From the IMG/VR virus record IMGVR_UViG_3300025286_001980, positions 1 to 44,083 of that record: 44,083 nucleotides of DNA; one strand, 5' to 3'. The notes below the pieces were generated by a model. That model searched no databases and was not told where the DNA came from. It saw only the letters and a list, made by a program, of their open reading frames with translations. Both the position numbers and the translations under genes were made by a program. Positions 11,999 to 33,267 of this stretch are shown piece by piece. This DNA is from a virus. The stretch's first letter is position 1; every line of letters starts with the position of its first letter.

Positions 11999-13648
11999 AT
12001 GTGTGGAATAGCCGCCTATGTTGGGCCTAGCGAAGCTTTTGATTTTGTTTCAGAGGCTTTAACTAAAATGGAGTACCGTGGATACGACAGTTTTGGAATT
12101 GTCGTTGTTGACGATAAGGTAGTTCACACTCAAAAGGCTACTGGGGCTCCTTCCGACCATGTGCTGGCCGTAGCCGATGGAAATATCGCACTGGGTCACA
12201 CTAGATGGGCCACTCATGGGCCGGTTGATATTTCAAACTGTCATCCCGTCCAATACAAGACTGTTCACGTTGTACATAATGGTATAGTCTTGAACGCTAC
12301 ACAGCACCGTGCCCGTCAAAAGGCAGAGTACGGAGTAGAGCATCAAACTGATACGGATACAGAAATTATTGCCGTAGAGCTTTACTATAAGAACCTTAAT
12401 GGTCTTGGGATCAATAGCACCAATATCGACTGTCTAGGAGATGTCGGAGCTTTTGTCGCCTACATAGAGGGTCAGGCAGAAGAAGGTCTGTGGGTGTACA
12501 GGGGTAGTTCTCCTTTATATTGTAGAAAGGGAAAGATTGCTAGCGACCTACAAGCCTTTAGCGGATATGAAGATGAGGCGTATGAGATACCCAGTACGAC
12601 CTTTCTCTTTGTCACGGCAGACTCTTTTATGGAGTATAGCCTGGGGTCTATCTATTCTCAAGTAACAGAAGTTCCCCCTATAGTGGCTGACCCCTCCACT
12701 ATTGTTCATTATATGTTAAAAGAAATTGATGAGCAGAGAAGTTCTACTAGCATTATCTCTGCTGATGCAATCACCTGGAGCAAAAAGAAGTTTCCTCTTA
12801 GGGTTAAGCTAGTCGGGTGCGGCAGCAGTTACTATGCAGCCATGTATGCGACTCGCCAGCTAACTCAGCGTAGCTCTGCCCTAGACATAACTGTAGAATA
12901 TGCTACGGACTTTACATATAGGGGAGTAGAGGATATTTTAGTCTTTATTAGTCAAAGCGGAGAAACTAAGGATGTGTTGGATGCCATTAAGAGTATCGGC
13001 TCCCTTGAACGCGACGGAATGAGAGTTCCCGATGTTGTTGTTATGCAAAATAAAAACAAATCATCGCTATCTCAGGCTGCACCAAGCCACGCGACAGTAG
13101 TTAATCTAAATGTCGGCCCCGAAATAGGAGTGGCCGCAACTAAAACCTTTACAGCTACTTCGTTAAAGCTACAAGAAATATTCGGGAGGCTTGAAGCGAA
13201 TAGCCCCCTCTGGCACGAGATTCAGGAACAAATAGATAAGGGGCTGGTAGGACAAATAACTCAGGAACTTATAGATACTATCTCAGGCTACAAGAACATC
13301 CTAATCCTTGGATGCTATTGGAGCTACCCCCTAGCTCTGGAGGCAGCACTTAAATTTAAAGAAGTGTCATATATCCATGCCGAGGCTATGAGGGCTTCAG
13401 AGATTAAGCATGGCCCTATCGCCCTGATAGACCCCGACACTCTTTGTATCGTTATGGGGGCAGATAGAAATGAAGAAACTAGAAATAACATTTACCAGAT
13501 TCAAGCTAGAGGCGGCAACGTTTTTGACTTGGGCGATAACGATCTAACCGCTATAATTATGCTTCAGAGAATTGCTTATTATGTAGCCCTGAACAAGGGA
13601 ATCAATCCAGACAAACCCCGACATTTAGCTAAGGCGGTGACAGTATAA
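11999..13648 (+). CDS. glmS: Glutamine-fructose-6-phosphate aminotransferase (isomerizing)
   Basis: The protein (549 residues) starts MCGIAAYVG, so Cys2 is the glutaminase nucleophile after Met removal. It carries MEYRGYDSFG, GHTRWATHG, HNGIVLN and TDTDTE in the glutaminase domain, then two SIS domains: VGCGSSYYAA with ISQSGETKD, and LEAALKFKEVSYIHAEAMRASEIKHGPIALI, ending PRHLAKAVTV. All landmarks of GlmS are present. It makes glucosamine-6-phosphate from fructose-6-phosphate and glutamine. It is about 60 residues shorter than the E. coli enzyme, mainly in the linker and second domain. ATG 11999 follows GAGGAAAAA; an upstream in-frame extension to 11924 lies in the previous gene and is rejected. 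Its last base is shared with the next gene. Confidence 0.95.
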   Translation: MCGIAAYVGPSEAFDFVSEALTKMEYRGYDSFGIVVVDDKVVHTQKATGAPSDHVLAVADGNIALGHTRWATHGPVDISNCHPVQYKTVHVVHNGIVLNATQHRARQKAEYGVEHQTDTDTEIIAVELYYKNLNGLGINSTNIDCLGDVGAFVAYIEGQAEEGLWVYRGSSPLYCRKGKIASDLQAFSGYEDEAYEIPSTTFLFVTADSFMEYSLGSIYSQVTEVPPIVADPSTIVHYMLKEIDEQRSSTSIISADAITWSKKKFPLRVKLVGCGSSYYAAMYATRQLTQRSSALDITVEYATDFTYRGVEDILVFISQSGETKDVLDAIKSIGSLERDGMRVPDVVVMQNKNKSSLSQAAPSHATVVNLNVGPEIGVAATKTFTATSLKLQEIFGRLEANSPLWHEIQEQIDKGLVGQITQELIDTISGYKNILILGCYWSYPLALEAALKFKEVSYIHAEAMRASEIKHGPIALIDPDTLCIVMGADRNEETRNNIYQIQARGGNVFDLGDNDLTAIIMLQRIAYYVALNKGINPDKPRHLAKAVTV

Positions 13649-14628
13649 TGCAACATCTTGAAAACTCTGAAGTTGGTAAACTACTAGAAGATAAATGGGC
13701 CTATGTAATTGATGCGATAGAATCAGCTTTCGTTGATCCAACGGCAGACATGATTCCTAAGACCTACCTAAATGTAGAAGGGGGCGACTATCGTGCAATG
13801 CCCGCCGCTCTAGGAGACTTTGCGGGAATCAAATGGATTGGTGTTTTCCCCGACAACTGGAAGCAGGGATTTTCTACAACTCCAGGGATTCTAGTCCTGA
13901 ACAAGAGGGGCAACGGTAGGTTGCTGCTTACAATGGAGTGCTGCAAGCTCACGGCTATTCGTACCGCAGCAGTCTCTACTATTGCAGCTAAATACTTCAC
14001 GTTTCCTGCCGACGTAAAGAAGATTGGATTTGTTGGCTGTGGCAATCAAGCCAGTCACCACATTGAAGCCTACCTAAGTCAATTTAATGAAGCGAGAGGA
14101 TATTCCATTGACGAGGTATTACTCTATGACACAGCATATATCAGCGGCATGTCCGAGGGGTGGAATAATCTGATTGCATCTAAGGATGTTGACTTCAAAG
14201 TTTGTGACACTCTAGAGGAACTTACTTCCCAATCTGATATTATTACCCTAACAACTCCTTCTAGAGAACCCTATCTTGGCCTGGAAAATCTTAAGCCTAA
14301 TGTGCATATCAATGCTGTCGGAGCCGACGCCGTGGGCAAACGCGAAGTCAAGCACGAAGTTTTGTACGGAGCCAAAAACGTTATATGTGACGACCGAGAA
14401 CAGGCAATGCACTCTGGAGAATTGCAATATAGTACCTCATTCTTGGGGGGCTACGGCAGCGGTCGTCGGCTCGACGTACAATCATTGAACAATATTATAC
14501 GAGATAACTCATTTCAGCCAAAGGGCATTTCCCTATTCGACTCAACGGGCGTGGCCCTTGAAGACTTGGCCGTGGGAACATTGGTTTTTTCTCTACTTCA
14601 TGACAGCAGATACCTTAAAGTCACGTAG
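13648..14628 (+). CDS. Ornithine cyclodeaminase / mu-crystallin family protein
   Basis: The 326-residue protein has the family's N-terminal RAMPA segment, the KWIGVFPDN stretch, an internal IRTAAVS block, the NAD(P)-binding loop GFVGCGNQASHHIEAY near residue 130, and NAVGADAVGKREV, where the Asp matches the catalytic Asp of ornithine cyclodeaminase. Relatives include ornithine and lysine cyclodeaminases, ketimine reductases (mu-crystallin) and the siderophore enzyme SbnB. The substrate cannot be chosen from sequence. A lysine-related role is worth noting because a lysine-6-dehydrogenase-like gene and an ALDH7-like dehydrogenase lie downstream. It is coupled to glmS and ends just before the tRNA. 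Confidence 0.8.
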   Translation: MQHLENSEVGKLLEDKWAYVIDAIESAFVDPTADMIPKTYLNVEGGDYRAMPAALGDFAGIKWIGVFPDNWKQGFSTTPGILVLNKRGNGRLLLTMECCKLTAIRTAAVSTIAAKYFTFPADVKKIGFVGCGNQASHHIEAYLSQFNEARGYSIDEVLLYDTAYISGMSEGWNNLIASKDVDFKVCDTLEELTSQSDIITLTTPSREPYLGLENLKPNVHINAVGADAVGKREVKHEVLYGAKNVICDDREQAMHSGELQYSTSFLGGYGSGRRLDVQSLNNIIRDNSFQPKGISLFDSTGVALEDLAVGTLVFSLLHDSRYLKVT

Positions 14629-14644: not shown

Positions 14645-14719
14645 GGGCGATTAACTCAGTCCGGTTAGAGTGTCTGCTTTACACGCAGAAAGTCGCTGGT
14701 TCAAATCCAGCATTGCCCA
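14645..14719 (+). tRNA. tRNA-Val, anticodon UAC
   Basis: A complete cloverleaf can be drawn. The acceptor stem GGGCGAT pairs with ATTGCCC (14712-14718) with one G-T pair, followed by discriminator A. The anticodon arm is TCTGC-TTTACAC-GCAGA, giving anticodon TAC (reads GUA and other Val codons). The T arm is GCTGG-TTCAAAT-CCAGC. CCA is not encoded. It is the only canonical tRNA I found in the window. Confidence 0.92.
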
Positions 14720-14785
14720 CTTACTAAATGAAACTTTTTTAGAACAGGAATCCCTGCCGCTCAATGGTGATCGGCAAACAGATTT

Positions 14786-14879: not shown

Positions 14880-15608
14880 ATGAAGTTGTTGAATGTTGTT
14901 TTGTCGTTCTGTGTTTTGTTTGTTGTCAGCGGTGCAGTTGCCGACGAACCGTACAACCCCAAAACTATTTTAGTGGTTGCATACGAGCCATTTGATGGGC
15001 GTAAGGCCAACGGCAGCGAAACTGCGGCTATGTATCTCAAGGGTAAGAAGTTTGAAGTTCTGCCGCGAGACACTGGCGTCGTTTATACTGTCAAGGTTTT
15101 AGTCTTGCCCGTAGTCTGGCAAGAACCGGAACGGCTGGCGACACGATACATCAGGGATCATAAACCCTCCCTTGTCCTCGGCATGGGAGAGTGTGGCACT
15201 TATACTGAAATGCGATTTGAAACGCGAGCCGTTAATTTGCGGTCTGGACAAGACGAAAATGGCGAGTGTCCTATCACAAACTACATCAGCAAGGGTGGGC
15301 CTTACTTTAAGCATACTCGCTTAAAGTTTAATAAAGACCTGTTTGACTGCAAGTTTACAAAGTCTAGGTTTGCTGGGAATTACCTTTGCAATAACCTGTT
15401 TTATGTCACGCTGGGGGCCACTAAAGCACCAGTAGGATTTGTCCACCTTCCCTCGCAACGAGACGCTTCTGACGAGGATTACCTGAAGCTGGTGCAAAAG
15501 AACCTTATTCTGCTACTGGAAGATAATCTTGAGGCCAAGCTCTATACTCCCAAGCCAAGAGCCGATCAGGGGGATATTCCCATGATATTTTTCGACATTC
15601 CTGAATAA
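14880..15608 (+). CDS. Exported pyrrolidone-carboxylate peptidase-like protein (family C15)
   Basis: The 242-residue protein starts with a cleavable signal peptide (about residues 1-21, ending GAVA-DEP) and then follows the C15 peptidase layout: VVAYEPFDG, LPVVWQEP, VLGMGECG, RFETRAVNLR, AGNYLCNNLFY and PVGFVHLPSQRD. The catalytic triad is intact: Glu114, Cys170 and His189. Family members remove N-terminal pyroglutamate from peptides and are normally cytoplasmic, about 215 residues, without a signal. Here the enzyme would act in the periplasm or outside. It stands in its own short unit: GGAGAAGGAAG precedes the ATG. Confidence 0.85.
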   Translation: MKLLNVVLSFCVLFVVSGAVADEPYNPKTILVVAYEPFDGRKANGSETAAMYLKGKKFEVLPRDTGVVYTVKVLVLPVVWQEPERLATRYIRDHKPSLVLGMGECGTYTEMRFETRAVNLRSGQDENGECPITNYISKGGPYFKHTRLKFNKDLFDCKFTKSRFAGNYLCNNLFYVTLGATKAPVGFVHLPSQRDASDEDYLKLVQKNLILLLEDNLEAKLYTPKPRADQGDIPMIFFDIPE

Positions 15609-17088: not shown

Positions 17089-17400
17089 CCCCATTGGTCG
17101 AGGGGATGAAACTCGACCTAAACATGTAGACATTGTTATAGATTATTAGCTAGACGCGGCTTCGATGCCGCCGCCTCCACTTATAAACTAGGGTTGACCC
17201 CCGAAAAGTCATCTGAGTTTTGATCGACTGTGAAGATGACCTGTTCCCTTTAAGGGGGCGAATTGGATTCGATAGGTAGTGGGAAATAATAATTGCATGT
17301 CGTAGTTGGAACTGAGGCTACGTTAAAACGGTTCTTTTATTATAGGTGTCGTAGATAATTACGCACTCGCAGCATAAGCTGCGTGAGGGGTTGCCTCTCC
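17089..17400 (+). ncRNA. ssrA: Circularly permuted two-piece tmRNA
   Basis: The acceptor half comes first. The T arm GCGGC-TTCGAT-GCCGC (17156-17171) is followed by acceptor strand CGCCTCC (17172-17178) and discriminator A17179. About 75 bases later comes the 5' half: acceptor strand GGGGGCG (17254-17260), then AATTGGATTCGATAGG, the tmRNA D-arm consensus. The strands form 7 pairs, including the G3-U70 wobble recognised by alanyl-tRNA synthetase. AATAAT (17285) pairs with ATTATT (17142), and ATGTC (17297) with GACAT (17129), giving the long helix joining the pieces. A pseudoknot PK1 (CGTAG/CTACG plus AACTG/CGGTT, 17301-17333) lies 11 bases before the tag, as in E. coli. CCC with a GGTCGAG/CTCGACC hairpin (17090-17118) forms another pseudoknot. 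Processing would yield two RNAs that rescue stalled ribosomes. Exact ends are estimates; the T loop is one base short. Confidence 0.92.
17345..17377 (+). other. tmRNA tag reading frame (GVVDNYALAA, stop TAA)
   Basis: Ten codons from GGT 17345 end in TAA 17375-17377 and encode GVVDNYALAA. The end NYALAA is identical to the end of the E. coli tag (ANDENYALAA), the part read by ClpXP and SspB, and the length is the same. The stop lies in the loop of a hairpin (CTCGCAGC with GCTGCGTGAG), as in known tmRNAs. The resume codon could instead be GTC 17348, since TAG at -5 to -3 resembles the E. coli context; the 11-base spacing from PK1 favours GGT. Confidence 0.85.
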
Positions 17401-17425
17401 CTTATCATCCAAAAGGGGCTTTTTT
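17393..17425 (+). terminator. Terminator after tmRNA
   Basis: GCCTCT (17393-17398) pairs with AGGGGC (17414-17419), one pair being G-T, with a 15-base loop, and a run of six T follows. It would end the tmRNA precursor transcript. Confidence 0.6.
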
Positions 17426-18331: not shown

Positions 18332-19834
18332 ATGTATATCGGTAGGAACTATGTAAATGGCGTGTTTGAAGCCCGCCGCTCTGAAGAGAAGGCAAGTTTT
18401 TCCCTAGTTAGTCCCGCCAATGGAAATCACTTGGGCGACTTTCCCTCTAGTGATGCCAGCGAAGTTTCCGATGCTGTGATGATTGCGTCACAAGCCTTTT
18501 CGACATGGAAAGACGTAAGCCGAGTCAATAGGGCAGACCTGTTCGATACTTTATCTCAATTAATTAAAAGAGATACTCAGGAACTGGCAGATGTTATTTC
18601 CTATGAAACAGGAAAAAATAGGAACGAGTCCTATGCTGAAGTGATCGAGTCCTTGCATATGTGTCAGTATGTAGCTGGGCAGGGGCGGCTTCCTTACGGT
18701 ACGGTAGTGAGTTCTGAACTGGCTAGTAAGTCGGCCAAAGTTTTCCGCAAGCCGAAGGGTGTTGTAGCTGTGATCTCGCCCTGGAATTTTCCATTAGCTA
18801 TTGGTGCTTTCTGGTCGGCGGCTCCTGCTATTGCAGAGGGTAACTGCGTCGTTCATAAGCCTAGCGAACTAACCCCAATGACATCTCAGATGGCGGCTAA
18901 ACTGTATGATGAAGCTGGATTTCCTGCTGGGGTTTACAACTTAATTCATGGTGCGGAAGATACTGGTAAAAACCTAGTTGCACATCCTGGCACTTCATGC
19001 ATATTGTTTACTGGTAGTGCTGAAGTAGGAATGGAGATTAGAAGGCACTGTGCTAATACTTGGCACAAGACCTGTTCCTGTGAAATGGGTAGTAAGTCGG
19101 CAACAATGATATTTGAAGACGGCAATTTTGATCTGGCGGTAGAGGTTTCTGTAGCTAGTGCATTTAAGCTGTCGGGACAGCGATGCGTTTCTTCTAGCAG
19201 ACTGCTAATCGAGAGAACTATTTATGATAAGTTTTGTGCCGCATTTCTTAAAGAAGTAAACAAGCTTCGCACTGGAGATGTGTTTGTAGACGAGGACGTA
19301 TATTACGGCCCGCTAATCTCGCGTGAGGCGGTGACTAAGGTTGAGGGCTATAACACTCAGGTTAGGTCTGCCTCCGCAGCTAACGAGGACATTAATATCC
19401 TGTCGGACGATGGGCCAGTACCTCTTGGAGGCAACTTCTTATCCCCATTTGTTTATCAGTCGGAGTGGAAGAATCTTAATGAGCGACCGTTCTTGCGAGA
19501 AGAGGTGTTCGGGCCTCACGTAGCCTTGATCCCCTTTGATGACTTGGGGCATGCTATTAAAATTTATAATGATACAGACTATGGCCTAGCTTTAGGTGCT
19601 GTAACTGACGACTTTAGAAAGCACCGCAAGCTGGAAGAAGAGTGTGATACCGGCATGCTTTATATTAATGGTGGCAGTATTGCTGCTGAAAGCCATCTGC
19701 CGTTTGGTGGAGTTGGTAAGAGTGGTAATGGTTGGAAGTCTGCCGCAGGTACATATCAAGCTGTGACAGAAGAGATATCGGTCACTACTAACTATGAGGA
19801 AAAAATGGAATGGGCACAGGGGATGACAAGCTAA
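18332..19834 (+). CDS. NAD(P)-dependent aldehyde dehydrogenase (ALDH superfamily)
   Basis: The 500-residue protein has the full superfamily pattern: SPWNFPLAIGAFW (residues 149-161), the cofactor loop FTGSAEVGMEI (226-236), Glu251 in CEMGSKSA, and nucleophile Cys285 in SGQRCVSSSR, with EEVFGPH and the C-terminal FGGVGKSGNG. The usual ELGGK around the general base is EMGSK. The GQRC(V/T)S form is seen in ALDH7-type aminoadipate-semialdehyde dehydrogenases and in succinylglutamate-type enzymes. It oxidises an aldehyde to an acid; a lysine-derived semialdehyde is an attractive substrate given the gene at 24247, but that is inference. It begins a new unit after a terminator with AAGGAAA before the ATG. 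Confidence 0.9.
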   Translation: MYIGRNYVNGVFEARRSEEKASFSLVSPANGNHLGDFPSSDASEVSDAVMIASQAFSTWKDVSRVNRADLFDTLSQLIKRDTQELADVISYETGKNRNESYAEVIESLHMCQYVAGQGRLPYGTVVSSELASKSAKVFRKPKGVVAVISPWNFPLAIGAFWSAAPAIAEGNCVVHKPSELTPMTSQMAAKLYDEAGFPAGVYNLIHGAEDTGKNLVAHPGTSCILFTGSAEVGMEIRRHCANTWHKTCSCEMGSKSATMIFEDGNFDLAVEVSVASAFKLSGQRCVSSSRLLIERTIYDKFCAAFLKEVNKLRTGDVFVDEDVYYGPLISREAVTKVEGYNTQVRSASAANEDINILSDDGPVPLGGNFLSPFVYQSEWKNLNERPFLREEVFGPHVALIPFDDLGHAIKIYNDTDYGLALGAVTDDFRKHRKLEEECDTGMLYINGGSIAAESHLPFGGVGKSGNGWKSAAGTYQAVTEEISVTTNYEEKMEWAQGMTS

Positions 19835-26308: not shown

Positions 26309-26785
26309 ATGAGCGAACACGACGAGCTTATAATCAATGGTCAAGTATATCCTTATCCTTCGGGCCATAACATATATTGGGAGCCTTGGATTGACGCATA
26401 CAATAATGATGGAATTGAAGATCAAAAACAAATTATTCAAGAGGCTCATGACGACGAAGAGAATCTATTAAACGAAGATTTAGACCTAGAGAATATAGAC
26501 AACATTCCTTTCTTCCAAACCCAGATCAAAACTATTTTAACTCCATTCGGAGTTTTACCCTTAACTGAAGAATCGTTAGCTAGTAACCACTTTAAATTTT
26601 GGGTGGGCCATGCCAACTTTAAGTTGTGGGATTCTTATTACCAGCTTATTGGTGATATCCTGGGTGTTGAGTCGGTTGATATACTAACTCCTTTGCGGTT
26701 CCGCATAGCAGTTGGAAAAATGTTTAAAGATACAGATGTACTGGATCAGGTAAGACTAACTCTAATTAAGGCGGCTGGCGAATGA
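26309..26785 (+). CDS. Hypothetical protein
   Basis: A 158-residue acidic protein starting MSEHDELIINGQVYPYPSGHN. It has a very acidic stretch around residues 45-65 and a folded-looking C-terminal half (FKFWVGHANFKLWDSYYQ). I do not recognise it. It is the first gene after the regulatory gap and its stop overlaps the ClpP-like gene, so it may be a partner of that protease. Confidence 0.55.
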   Translation: MSEHDELIINGQVYPYPSGHNIYWEPWIDAYNNDGIEDQKQIIQEAHDDEENLLNEDLDLENIDNIPFFQTQIKTILTPFGVLPLTEESLASNHFKFWVGHANFKLWDSYYQLIGDILGVESVDILTPLRFRIAVGKMFKDTDVLDQVRLTLIKAAGE

Positions 26786-27468
26786 GCTTGTCAAATAGAA
26801 ATAGAGTATCGAAGGGTTATATCGTCAATGAAATGCACGAGTTTAATATCCTTCTAGAGTCTCGTGAAATATTCATACATGGATATATTGACAACACCGA
26901 CGATGATCCTGGTGTTGAATATCGCATGTCTAATAACTTCATAAAAAATATATCTCTATTAACACAACTAAATAGCACAGACCCAATCATTATACATCAA
27001 CACTCTGTAGGAGGACTATGGAGTGAGGGTATGATGATATACGATGCGATACAAACTTGTACGGCTCCTGTGGTTATGATTTTGCACGGCTCTGCAATTT
27101 CTATGGGAAGTATTATTCCTCACGCAGCAGATTTAAGGGTGTGTATGCCCAACTGTTGGTGGATGGTACACGACGGCTATACGGAGATATCTGGATGTAC
27201 TATGAAACAGGCTAGATCATGGAACGAGTGGGAGCAAAGCCTAAGTAAGCAGATGTTTGAAATTTATACGTCTGTCTGCTTAGAACACGGAAAGTTCTTT
27301 AAAGGTAAAAGCGAAGCTCAAGTAAGAAGCTATCTGAAAAGACAGCTTGACAAAAAGGAGGACTGGTGGTTTACCGCCGAGGAATCAGTCAATCTAGGAT
27401 TTGCCGACGCGATTTGGGGAGCAGAAGGCTACGAGTCCTTAGATAAAATACGATCTCATGTACTTTGA
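26782..27468 (+). CDS. ClpP-like serine protease
   Basis: The 228-residue protein has the ClpP/crotonase fold landmarks: IIIHQHSVGGLWSEGMMIYDAI, VVMILHGSAISMGSII with nucleophile Ser107, and WWMVHDGYTE with His130. The usual GxxASMG is GSAISMGS, and the His motif MIHQP is MVHDG. Ser and His are kept, so activity is possible. It is somewhat longer than host ClpP (about 200) with an extra N-terminal extension. In phages ClpP-type proteins often act as head-maturation proteases; it may also be a host-like proteolytic subunit. No scaffold or portal gene is seen beside it. The start overlaps the preceding stop. Confidence 0.85.
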   Translation: MSLSNRNRVSKGYIVNEMHEFNILLESREIFIHGYIDNTDDDPGVEYRMSNNFIKNISLLTQLNSTDPIIIHQHSVGGLWSEGMMIYDAIQTCTAPVVMILHGSAISMGSIIPHAADLRVCMPNCWWMVHDGYTEISGCTMKQARSWNEWEQSLSKQMFEIYTSVCLEHGKFFKGKSEAQVRSYLKRQLDKKEDWWFTAEESVNLGFADAIWGAEGYESLDKIRSHVL

Positions 27469-29862: not shown

Positions 29863-32800
29863 GTGGAAGTATTTTCTAATTCCTTTTCTGAGGAAACGTG
29901 GTTTCAGAAGTACAAGTTCAAGGATGATACTTGCATACAAGACACTTGGAAGAGAGTCGCCAGGGATTTGGCATCTATAGAGGAAGATCAGGATAAGTGG
30001 ACTAAAAAGTTCTACCAAGCTCTTGAGAGCTTCAAGTTTGTTCCTGGTGGTCGAATCACATCTAATGCAGGAACGGGCCTCACCGGAACTACGATGATTA
30101 ACTGCTTTCATGGCAGCACTGAGATCATCACCCGCGAAGGCATCTGTAAGATCAAGGACTTGGTCGATAAAGATGTATTGCTCTTGGGCCGTTCTGGAAA
30201 GTGGTCATCAGGCAAGATACAATCCTTTGGTAAGCAAAGAATATTTAAGTTAACTGTTAAAAAAAATAGACAGCTTAAAACTATTCTTACCACAGGAAAC
30301 CATAAGTGGTTTGCCTATACCAAGGCAAATAAAAACCTCGTAGAGCTTACCACGGAGGAACTGCAAAGTTATCATAGGCTTGAGCAGTCCGTCTCTAAAT
30401 CGCATCACAGCACAAGCCCCTCCCCTATAGGCGTAGCTCAGGGGTTTACATACGGTGATGGGTCAAGCACCCCTTATAATAATGTTGCAACTAATGTAAG
30501 TCTACGCGGAGCGAAATACAAGGTTCTAGCTCCTTATTTTGGATTATACTCTGTAAGAACATACGGCGGTTTCTTTCGGATTCCACAACTTCCCAATAGC
30601 TGGAGAAGGTTGCCAGAGCTTACAGAGAATGCCTCCTTTCTTCTAGGCTGGCTGGCAGGATATTTCGCTGCCGATGGATGTGTGTCAAGCGAAGGAGAAT
30701 GCACTGTCGCTAGTGCAGAATTAGATAATATAAAGTTCGTTAAGAGCATATGCTCTGTACTTGGTATTAGATACTTCAAAGAAAAAAGCCAAGAAGGAGT
30801 CTCAAATCTAACCAATAGAAATTCTACCATACACTCTCTTTGCTTAGACAGTAAAGACTTAAATAATTCCTTCTTTATTATTCCAGATCACAAGCAAAGG
30901 TTTATAGATAAACCTAGAACTAAAAAGCACCATTGGAAGGTTGTATCTGTAGAAGATACAGGTATAGATGACAGCGTATACTGTGCGGTAGTACCGACCA
31001 CCCACAAGTTTGCCTTAGAAGGCAACATATTAACCTCTAACTGCTTCGTAGACGGGTTTGAAGGCCAAGACCTCGACTCTATCGAGGGCATCTACGACAC
31101 TCTCCTTAAACAGGCTCAGATTTTAAAATCAGAAGGAGGGTATGGTTTCTGTGCTGATATAATGAGGCCCAACGGGGCTCATATCAAAGGCATTGCAAAC
31201 CAATCTCCTGGCTCAGTCAAGTTTTTAGAGCTATGGGATAAGTCGTCTGAGATTATTACGGCAGGTTCTAATAAGCAGTCCCGCGATGACGAAAAGAACT
31301 TTATCCGCAAAGGGGCACAGATGGTCACTATGTCCTGCTGGCATCCCGACATAGTAGAATTTATTACAGCCAAAGAAACTCCAGGCAGACTTACCAAATT
31401 TAATATGTCTGTACTTTGTACTGATAACTTTATGAGTGCTGTTCAGAATGATGAGCCGTGGGATTTAGTTTTTCCGAATTATGAGGCATACAGTAAAGAC
31501 TACAAGAAGCACTGGGATGGTAACTTAGATAAGTGGGTTGAACTGTGTAATGCAGAAGATGCCTTGGTAGTGTATCACTCCTTCAAGTCTGCTCGTGAAC
31601 TGTGGGACTTGGTAATGACCAATACCTATAATCGTAATGAGCCAGGAGTGTTGTTCGTAGACACTATGAATAAAATGAATAACTTAAAGTACTGCGAATG
31701 GGTTAATGCTACGAACCCTTGCGGTGAGCAAGTACTCCCCATCGGAGGAGTGTGTCTGCTTGGCTCTATTAACCTAGTCCACTTTATAGATGTCGAAAAT
31801 AAAACCTGGAAGTTCAACGAACTTAAAAAAACAATTCATACGGCTGTTCGCTTCATGGACAACGTTAATGATATCACGAATGTGCCTTTAAAGTCACAGA
31901 AAAAATCATTGCAAGAGAAGAGACGGATTGGCCTGGGAGTTTTAGGCTACGGTTCGGCATTGCTAATGGCTCGTGTTAAATATGGTGGCAAGAAAGCTTT
32001 GGAAATGACAGAAGAACTAATGGGGTTCTTTACGAATGAGGCATACAAAGCTAATGCTATGCTAGCCAAAGAGAAGGGTGTCTTTGATCTATATGACGAA
32101 GAAGAATATCTTAGTAGCGAGTTCTTGAAAAATTTAGATGATGACACCATTAATCTTATTAAAAAGCATGGAATGCGAAACTCTCATGTAACCTCTATTC
32201 AGCCTACCGGCAATAGCTCATGCTTTGCCAACCTTGTTAGTGGGGGTATAGAGCCGCTATTTATGCATGGCTATGTTCGTACTTCAATTCAACCTGCTCC
32301 TGCCGATCTTCAAATTCCCGTAAAAGTTGACTGGGCTAATAAGAGCTACAAAGGGAATGGCTGGTCGTGGGCACGAGAAGGCGATGAAGACTTACTGGTA
32401 ACTGAGTTTGAGAATAAGGTATGGAAGTATGATAGGCATCGTGGCCTAACTAAAGAAGAATGGATCGAGGACTATGGGGTGTCTGCTTTAAAGCAAATGG
32501 ATAAGTGGAATCCCAACTCTCCTTGGGCTGCGTGTACTATGGACTTGTCAGTTGATGCTCATGTAAAAACTATGTCAGTTTTCGCAAAATGGGTAGATTC
32601 GGCCATCTCCAAAACCATTAATTTACCCAATGACTACTCATATAGCCACTTTAAGTTGGTGTATAAGAAGGCATGGGAAAACGGCATTAAGGGCTTTACC
32701 ACATATCGTGCTGGTACTATGACCTCTGTTTTATCGGCAGAATCATCACTAAAAGACCCTATAATTCCTGACAGACCCCGCGAATTACCGTGCGACGTTT

Positions 32801-33267
32801 ACCATATTACGGTAAAAGGTGTTGCTTACTTCGTATTAGTGGGATTATTGGACAAAAATCCACACGAAGTGTTCGCAGGGAAGAATGGATTCATCGACAA
32901 AAAAGTGGTTGGTGGGACTATAATAAAGCTAGGTAGACCAAAGGGCGTGTATAAGGCCATTTTAGATAACGGCCTAGAATTATCTCCAATTAATGCTACG
33001 TGTTCTGCTGAAGAAGATGCGTTGACTCGAATGACCTCGTTATCTTTACGACATGGTGCAGATATGCACACCGTTGTTGGACAGCTAGAGAAAGTCAAGG
33101 GCGATATGCACTGCTTCGCAAAAAGTATGGCACGAGCTATTAAAAAATATATTCCAGATGGATCAAAAGAGGAAGGTCAATGCCCCGATTGTAGTGCAAC
33201 CGACAGTCTAATTAGACAAGAGGGCTGCATAACTTGCACACAATGCAGTTTCTCCAAATGTGCATAA
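29863..33267 (+). CDS. nrdJ: Class II (adenosylcobalamin-dependent) ribonucleotide reductase with intein
   Basis: The 1134-codon frame encodes an 821-residue reductase split by a 313-residue intein (residues 81-393). The N-terminal extein has FVPGGRITSNAGTG; the C-terminal extein starts CFVDGFEG, where this Cys is the redox Cys of the first conserved NC block. NPCGE (residues 618-622) is the radical Cys/Glu motif, and GGVCLLGSINL the partner Cys. The C-terminal part has the TSCPD-type domain of NrdJ and ends with CPDCS, EGCITCTQC and SKC, a Cys-rich tail used for re-reduction. It makes dNTP precursors without oxygen or a second subunit, using B12. GTG start follows GAGAGG at 10 bases. Its transcription may be governed by the terminator just upstream. 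Confidence 0.93.
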   Translation: MEVFSNSFSEETWFQKYKFKDDTCIQDTWKRVARDLASIEEDQDKWTKKFYQALESFKFVPGGRITSNAGTGLTGTTMINCFHGSTEIITREGICKIKDLVDKDVLLLGRSGKWSSGKIQSFGKQRIFKLTVKKNRQLKTILTTGNHKWFAYTKANKNLVELTTEELQSYHRLEQSVSKSHHSTSPSPIGVAQGFTYGDGSSTPYNNVATNVSLRGAKYKVLAPYFGLYSVRTYGGFFRIPQLPNSWRRLPELTENASFLLGWLAGYFAADGCVSSEGECTVASAELDNIKFVKSICSVLGIRYFKEKSQEGVSNLTNRNSTIHSLCLDSKDLNNSFFIIPDHKQRFIDKPRTKKHHWKVVSVEDTGIDDSVYCAVVPTTHKFALEGNILTSNCFVDGFEGQDLDSIEGIYDTLLKQAQILKSEGGYGFCADIMRPNGAHIKGIANQSPGSVKFLELWDKSSEIITAGSNKQSRDDEKNFIRKGAQMVTMSCWHPDIVEFITAKETPGRLTKFNMSVLCTDNFMSAVQNDEPWDLVFPNYEAYSKDYKKHWDGNLDKWVELCNAEDALVVYHSFKSARELWDLVMTNTYNRNEPGVLFVDTMNKMNNLKYCEWVNATNPCGEQVLPIGGVCLLGSINLVHFIDVENKTWKFNELKKTIHTAVRFMDNVNDITNVPLKSQKKSLQEKRRIGLGVLGYGSALLMARVKYGGKKALEMTEELMGFFTNEAYKANAMLAKEKGVFDLYDEEEYLSSEFLKNLDDDTINLIKKHGMRNSHVTSIQPTGNSSCFANLVSGGIEPLFMHGYVRTSIQPAPADLQIPVKVDWANKSYKGNGWSWAREGDEDLLVTEFENKVWKYDRHRGLTKEEWIEDYGVSALKQMDKWNPNSPWAACTMDLSVDAHVKTMSVFAKWVDSAISKTINLPNDYSYSHFKLVYKKAWENGIKGFTTYRAGTMTSVLSAESSLKDPIIPDRPRELPCDVYHITVKGVAYFVLVGLLDKNPHEVFAGKNGFIDKKVVGGTIIKLGRPKGVYKAILDNGLELSPINATCSAEEDALTRMTSLSLRHGADMHTVVGQLEKVKGDMHCFAKSMARAIKKYIPDGSKEEGQCPDCSATDSLIRQEGCITCTQCSFSKCA
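30103..31041 (+). other. Intein in nrdJ (313 residues, one LAGLIDADG motif)
   Basis: The insert begins CFHGSTEIITREG (block A, Cys1), has TTGNHKWFAY (block B with TxxH), the endonuclease motif LAGYFAADG (reductase residues 264-272), and ends VVPTTHKFALEGNILTSN with the terminal Asn before Cys+1 of the extein. All splicing residues are present except that the penultimate residue is Ser, not His. Only one LAGLIDADG motif is visible; the usual second motif about 100 residues later is not, so the homing nuclease may be reduced. The insertion point is directly before the conserved redox Cys of the enzyme, so the unspliced protein would be inactive. Confidence 0.92.

Follow-up and report, generated by a model that had tools for sequence, protein, structure and literature searches.

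A circularly permuted tmRNA gene was identified, by Rfam match and inspection of the sequence, at 17112-17419 (+) of a 44,083-nt stretch of viral DNA (IMG/VR record IMGVR_UViG_3300025286_001980), here called the window. It is probable that this gene produces a working two-piece tmRNA, that its permutation arose inside a phage family and not by capture from bacteria, and that it has been exchanged as a cassette. The gene order, the covarying structure, the placement in a family and the alternation of forms among related phages are the direct basis here; expression, processing, charging, tagging and the direction of change we infer.

Two-piece tmRNA is known from three bacterial groups, the Alphaproteobacteria, the Cyanobacteria and part of the Betaproteobacteria, and also from mitochondria of protists (PMC3985003, PMC3968760). 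An earlier sequence-only reading of the window had regarded a permuted tmRNA on a phage as unusual in itself. This view is not supported: of the 133 unique structures in a 2022 survey of phage tmRNAs, 53 were two-piece (PMC9004378). A current database contains 79 phage tmRNAs (PMC11915505).

Identification of the permuted tmRNA gene

The gene matched the Rfam model RF04321 (tmRNA_permuted) at 17122-17377 on the plus strand with 73.4 bits and an E value of 2e-12 (cmscan, Rfam 15). The match spans the full model (positions 1-213) and its score exceeds the gathering cut-off of 47 bits. As a yardstick, 131 of 142 alphaproteobacterial genomes scored above this cut-off, with true permuted genes mostly at 98-166 bits. 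Two of 229 Gammaproteobacteria did so (141 and 47.9 bits) and the others scored below; the one-piece genes of Gammaproteobacteria (n = 229) score no higher than about 48 bits. The sequence-only reading had proposed a phage-borne permuted two-piece tmRNA, with the 3′ half encoded before the 5′ half, and had suggested covariance models as a check. That check was run here and bears out the proposal.

The clade-specific beta and cyanobacterial models fit the window gene poorly: it scored 66.2 bits with RF01850 (cut-off 84; a true beta gene scored 251.5) and 25.5 bits with RF01851 (cut-off 70). With the alpha model RF01849 (threshold 50), the permuted genes of the relatives G012, L252, L239, L287 and L228 scored 53-86 bits and a true alpha gene 238; lower-scoring matches within a clan are omitted from the Rfam output, and the RF01849 score of the window gene is thus not itemised.

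The only other RNA gene reported by cmscan in the window was a tRNA-Val. ARAGORN run on the window reported the tRNA alone and nothing at the tmRNA locus, probably because the T-loop of the tmRNA has 6 nt.

Structure and covariation

The predicted parts are listed in Table 1. The acceptor piece contains the P2 strands, the T-arm, the 3′ acceptor strand and the discriminator A73 at 17179. CUU comes next, so the window gene does not encode CCA. The coding piece contains the 5′ acceptor strand, the D region, P2 strands, PK1, the tag frame and PK2. Permuted tmRNAs are characterized by PK1, a tag frame with a stop and PK2 only (PMC3985003); all three are present in the window gene, with PK2 recognized by reading the sequence.

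Table 1. Predicted parts of the permuted tmRNA gene, in window coordinates.
Feature	Position	Strand	Basis and remarks
Leader hairpin GGUCGAG/CUCGACC	17096-17118	+	Sequence, minimum free energy fold; directly 5′ of acceptor piece
Acceptor (3′) piece, predicted bounds	17112-17179	+	RF04321 alignment, classifier, covariation
3′ strand of P2c	17122-17127	+	Pairs with 17295-17300
3′ strand of P2b	17132-17139	+	Pairs with 17286-17293
3′ strand of P2a	17146-17152	+	Pairs with 17273-17279; interrupted helix, one mismatch
T-arm GCGGC-UUCGAU-GCCGC	17156-17171	+	Sequence; unusual 6-nt loop
3′ acceptor strand CGCCUCC	17172-17178	+	Pairs with 17254-17260
Intervening segment, 74 nt	17180-17253	+	Between the two pieces; presumably removed
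Coding (5′) piece, predicted bounds	17254-17419	+	Sequence, Rfam alignment, covariation
5′ acceptor strand GGGGGCG	17254-17260	+	Covariation; G3-U70 Ala identity pair
5′ strands of P2a (17273-17279), P2b (17286-17293), P2c (17295-17300)	17273-17300	+	Covariation
PK1: S1 17301-17305/17318-17322, S2 17309-17314/17329-17334	17301-17334	+	Covariation
Tag frame GVVDNYALAA-stop	17345-17377	+	Sequence; compared with six permuted relatives
PK2-type pseudoknot (putative): S1 17387-17390/17399-17402, S2 17393-17398/17414-17419	17387-17419	+	Sequence and relatives

Most of the architecture read from the sequence alone was recovered: the acceptor/T-arm half ahead of the 5′ half, the 7-bp acceptor stem with G3-U70, and the 10-codon tag with its stop in a hairpin loop (CGCAGC-AUAA-GCUGCG). 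Helices do join the halves, but there are three of them, one interrupted, and not two. PK1 precedes the tag as had been claimed, at 10 bases from GGU 17345 instead of 11. The resume codon is ambiguous, because the spacing from the end of PK1 favours GGU 17345 and a conserved A at -4 favours GUC 17348; the tag end is identical either way. Positions -6 to +1 are important for the resume codon (PMC3985003). The U-run at 17420-17425 after PK2 may have an additional role as terminator; a terminator scan gave no listing for PK2 and this U-run.

Seven permuted phage genes (window, G012, L228, L239, L252, L270 and L287) were aligned and 43 named pairs were scored. Over these pairs 91.7% of cells were paired, compared with 80.5% after shuffling and 37-50% in slid versions. 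Changes on both sides were found in 19 of the 43 pairs, and none of 500 shuffles, which do not keep the relatedness among the sequences, was as high. The covariation score was 0.381, against 0.164 for shuffled and at most 0.096 for slid alignments, the slid control leaning in favour of the structure because the named structure was derived from the window sequence. The acceptor stem was paired in 100% of cells, with G-U at G3-U70 in 7/7 genes, and compensatory changes occur both there and in the cross-piece P2. P2b and P2c were paired in 94.6-97.6% of cells with double changes present; P2a is the weakest helix (73.8%). PK1 S1 is invariant and PK1 S2 has five pairs with double changes. RNAalifold, unaided, recovers the acceptor, P2 and PK1-S2 helices. 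The structure of the window tmRNA is not due to chance.

These data bear on whether the locus might be a relic or an assembly artefact, that is, a broken or mis-joined one-piece gene. The contigs are metagenomic and the 6-nt T-loop breaks the usual pattern; yet seven diverged permuted genes from separate assemblies have intact helices, and one-piece relatives have the same type of T-loop. This explanation is already contradicted, and we give it hardly any credence.

The intervening segment ranges from 5 to 174 nt across the relatives. The shortest is in L239, where the two pieces are only 5 nt apart (CUUAC), leaving little room for separate processing signals.

The phage and its relatives

The phage is large and uncultured, and the 44 kb of the window are a fragment of its genome, with genes for DnaB, primase, a RecA-like recombinase, SSB, ThyX and RNR. 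Collinear relatives were obtained by a RecA search in IMG/VR. G012 is a collinear relative, with many core proteins 60-82% identical to those of the window phage. It holds a homologous permuted tmRNA gene (RF04321, 100.6 bits) in the same neighbourhood. Strict orthology of the two tmRNA genes was considered and dropped, as they lie in slightly different places and the G012 gene is closest to that of L252. G007 extends the window by 23 kb, adding a DNA polymerase and a sigma-factor-like gene. G038 (IMGVR_UViG_3300025128_006668) is a more distant collinear phage (DnaB 64%) and its tmRNA is one-piece (RF00023, 122 bits; tag AEKNFSLAA). The G038 gene has in common with the window gene the P2 and PK1 sequence, the PK2 element, the acceptor end CUCCACUWA and a related genome; unlike it, the G038 gene is in one piece of 340 nt, follows the standard order and has additional domains downstream.

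G001 and G002 were rejected as relatives with a one-piece gene, having little in common with the window beyond an aldehyde dehydrogenase. That gene (window 18332-19834; G001 51453-52973) is 79% identical between phages that otherwise share little, which suggests gene transfer. Other genes near the tmRNA are ornithine cyclodeaminase-like (13648-14628) and pyroglutamyl peptidase-like (14880-15608), together with the tRNA-Val(UAC) gene (14645-14720), which resembles tRNAs of Synechococcus phages. The large subunit of RNR (29863-33267) is interrupted in frame by an intein-like insertion that includes a LAGLIDADG-like domain; the G012 homologue, 848 aa in length, seems to be without it.

A mostly one-piece phage tmRNA family

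A scan of viral contigs with the PK1 motif common to these genes matched at least 119 viral stretches. Among the matches, 80 loci were listed and sorted by acceptor-strand and T-arm pairing (L228 by eye); most were one-piece and few permuted. Rfam was run on 16 of these loci and gave five permuted genes (L228, L239, L252, L270 and L287), eight one-piece genes and three loci without a tmRNA match above cut-off. L214 and L288, called permuted by the pairing heuristic, were not used; Rfam makes L214 one-piece. The pattern TGTAGACNTTGTTATAGA gave chance matches only in viral contigs, apart from G012, and TTCGATGCCGCCGCCTCCA gave four matches, one of them a one-piece tmRNA (L004). No match, or short ones only, was found when several of these tmRNA genes were compared with cultured phages by blastn.

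The window gene belongs to this large, mostly one-piece family. Its T-arm of the form xxGGC-UUCRAU-GCCxx and its A-CUUA end recur in one-piece L215, L250 and L260, and its 6-nt T-loop type also in one-piece L004. Likewise one-piece L218 shares with G012 the 6-bp T-stem, the GGCAGUU loop and the encoded CCA, and one-piece L281 does so with GGCAGAU as the loop. Four one-piece phage tmRNAs (L218, L281, L262 and L210) are about 440-450 nt long with tag frames of more than 30 codons, compared with the usual 10; that of L281 has about 34 aa and ends in SLLAA.

Ancestry of the permuted phage genes

Motif columns were removed ahead of every ancestry test that used motif-selected rows, and only about 150-165 columns were alignable. 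A profile built from 72 one-piece phage genes gave the window gene 70.7 bits, against 11.5 bits for one built from 33 permuted genes of bacteria; in leave-one-out checks the two classes stayed apart. The difference (one-piece phage minus bacterial permuted) was +20 to +84 for the seven permuted phage genes, and -8 and -13, on the bacterial side, for the alpha-like phage permuted genes ph117 and ph119. For G012, L252, L239 and L287 the preference for the one-piece-phage profile is no greater than that of ordinary bacterial one-piece genes. The rows nearest to the window gene were L270 (permuted, 0.68 identity) and G038 (one-piece, 0.65), and the best bacterial permuted gene reached 0.42.

In a tree whose rows included no cyanobacterial genes, the seven permuted phage genes were placed with the mostly one-piece phage family. 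When PK1-motif-selected rows were left out, the window and G012 genes grouped with one-piece forms (96/86). A single clade of all permuted genes gave AU p values of 0.133 and 0.079 in the large set and of 0.155 and 0.068 in the set without PK1-motif-selected rows; it was rejected (p 0.021) when long rows were also removed from the latter set. A single origin of the seven genes within phages was not rejected (p 0.218). An independent origin is thus well supported by similarity and moderately supported by the tree tests (AU p 0.02-0.16). Sequence comparison makes an origin of the window gene apart from the bacterial permutation events likely, though not proven. The sequence-only reading had left capture and separate origin side by side, and the evidence favours the latter (70.7 against 11.5 bits; 0.65 against 0.42).

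The competing explanation is that a bacterium whose ssrA is permuted, of the alpha or beta group or of an unsampled lineage, was the source of the working tmRNA gene, which diverged after its capture; its likeness to one-piece phage genes would then be due to recombination or convergence. Alpha is the best clade model for the G012 gene, one origin of all permuted genes is not firmly rejected by the AU tests, and the two-piece tmRNAs already known from Melnitz-type phages fall with those of Alphaproteobacteria (PMC9004378). Permuted tmRNAs on two further phage contigs, L117 (13154-13460) and L119 (1109-1274), also group with bacterial permuted genes, which indicates that captured copies exist as well. 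However, the window gene prefers the one-piece phage profile by 59 bits, clade-specific models score low and its nearest neighbours are all phage. We therefore regard capture as unlikely for this gene. An alphaproteobacterial origin, considered from the T-loop and alpha-model score of G012, was dropped: some T-loops (GGCAGUU) look alphaproteobacterial, but one-piece phage genes carry them as well.

Among described systems, Methylophilales phage Melnitz and Pelagibacter phage Mosig are likewise large aquatic phages whose tmRNA gene is permuted (PMC9004378). Theirs is described as of alphaproteobacterial ancestry, whereas the window gene groups with one-piece phage tmRNAs, Melnitz being compared by description. 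Bacterial permuted ssrA (RF01849, RF01850 and RF01851, merged in RF04321) has the same gene order, joining by acceptor stem and P2, PK1-tag-PK2 arrangement and Ala identity pair. Unlike it, the window gene has a standard-type P2 strand, CUAAACAUGUAGAC, and a 6-nt T-loop, and falls below the beta and cyanobacterial cut-offs.

The NYALAA tag end had been taken to conflict with the architecture. Permuted relatives have the tag ends ADASLALAA, ADESLALAA, GVENYAMAA and ATRNYTVAA; ANDENYALAA is the tag of a one-piece gene from Burkholderiales. Such ends occur in both gene forms, so the tag end says little about ancestry and the supposed conflict is not supported.

Changes of form among related phages

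For eight phages, the starred branches of the DnaB and RecA trees agree and at least three changes of tmRNA form are needed. G472, with a permuted gene, and G475, with a one-piece gene, form a sister pair that is collinear over about 36 kb. More than one change is also required by a glycosyltransferase tree, which covers a partly different set of phages. Across the phages compared, the tmRNA gene is found in a variable region about 2-21 kb upstream of this glycosyltransferase gene, a pattern consistent with its gain, loss and exchange as a cassette. As every record is a fragment, a single phage could also carry both forms. A bolder reading, which we offer tentatively and somewhat doubt, is that permutation has struck the tmRNA genes of phages themselves more than once and that relatives switch forms; the split form would then be a recurrent outcome in phages instead of a rare remnant of three events in bacteria.

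Proposed function

The RNA would be made as a single precursor, probably transcribed together with neighbour genes; read-through is assumed because no promoter-like site was found just upstream of the tmRNA gene. Host RNase P would cut 5′ of G17254 and a second cut would fall 3′ of A17179, after which CCA would be added to the acceptor piece and the 74 nt in between would be lost. The acceptor stem and the P2 helices would hold the acceptor and coding pieces together, and the RNA would be charged with alanine via G3-U70. With host SmpB it would rescue stalled ribosomes and add a tag ending in NYALAA for proteolysis. No SmpB gene was found in 14 phage records, so function would depend on that of the host. 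Trans-translation is favoured by the unvarying G3-U70, by the retention of the tag frame with its stop and by the covariation of PK1.

The RNA might instead be a decoy or inhibitor of host tmRNA, by analogy with phage DS6A, whose tag-less tmRNA-like RNA is reported to act in this way (precedent cited in PMC11915505); the lack of SmpB in the phage records would agree with this. But the tag frame with its stop, PK1 and G3-U70 are kept in 7/7 permuted genes, PK1 S2 has compensatory change, and the DS6A RNA is without a coding part. A decoy is accordingly very improbable. A ClpP-like protease (Pfam CLP_protease; window 26782-27468) is shared with G012 and G038; it may serve in head maturation, but a role with tagged proteins is conceivable.

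On the preferred account of ancestry, the permutation would have taken place inside the phage tmRNA family, with no permuted ssrA taken over from Alphaproteobacteria, Betaproteobacteria or Cyanobacteria, and related large phages would have passed the gene between them as a cassette. That phages can carry a permuted tmRNA is already known. The origin within phages looks new; in a partial check of the literature, we came across no account of a permuted lineage that originated in phages. Such an origin, with sister phages of both forms, would offer a natural comparison for how functional RNA genes become permuted, and the same comparison bears on whether splitting is neutral or useful. The scan also reveals a large pool of phage tmRNAs, some of which are missed by the standard finder ARAGORN.
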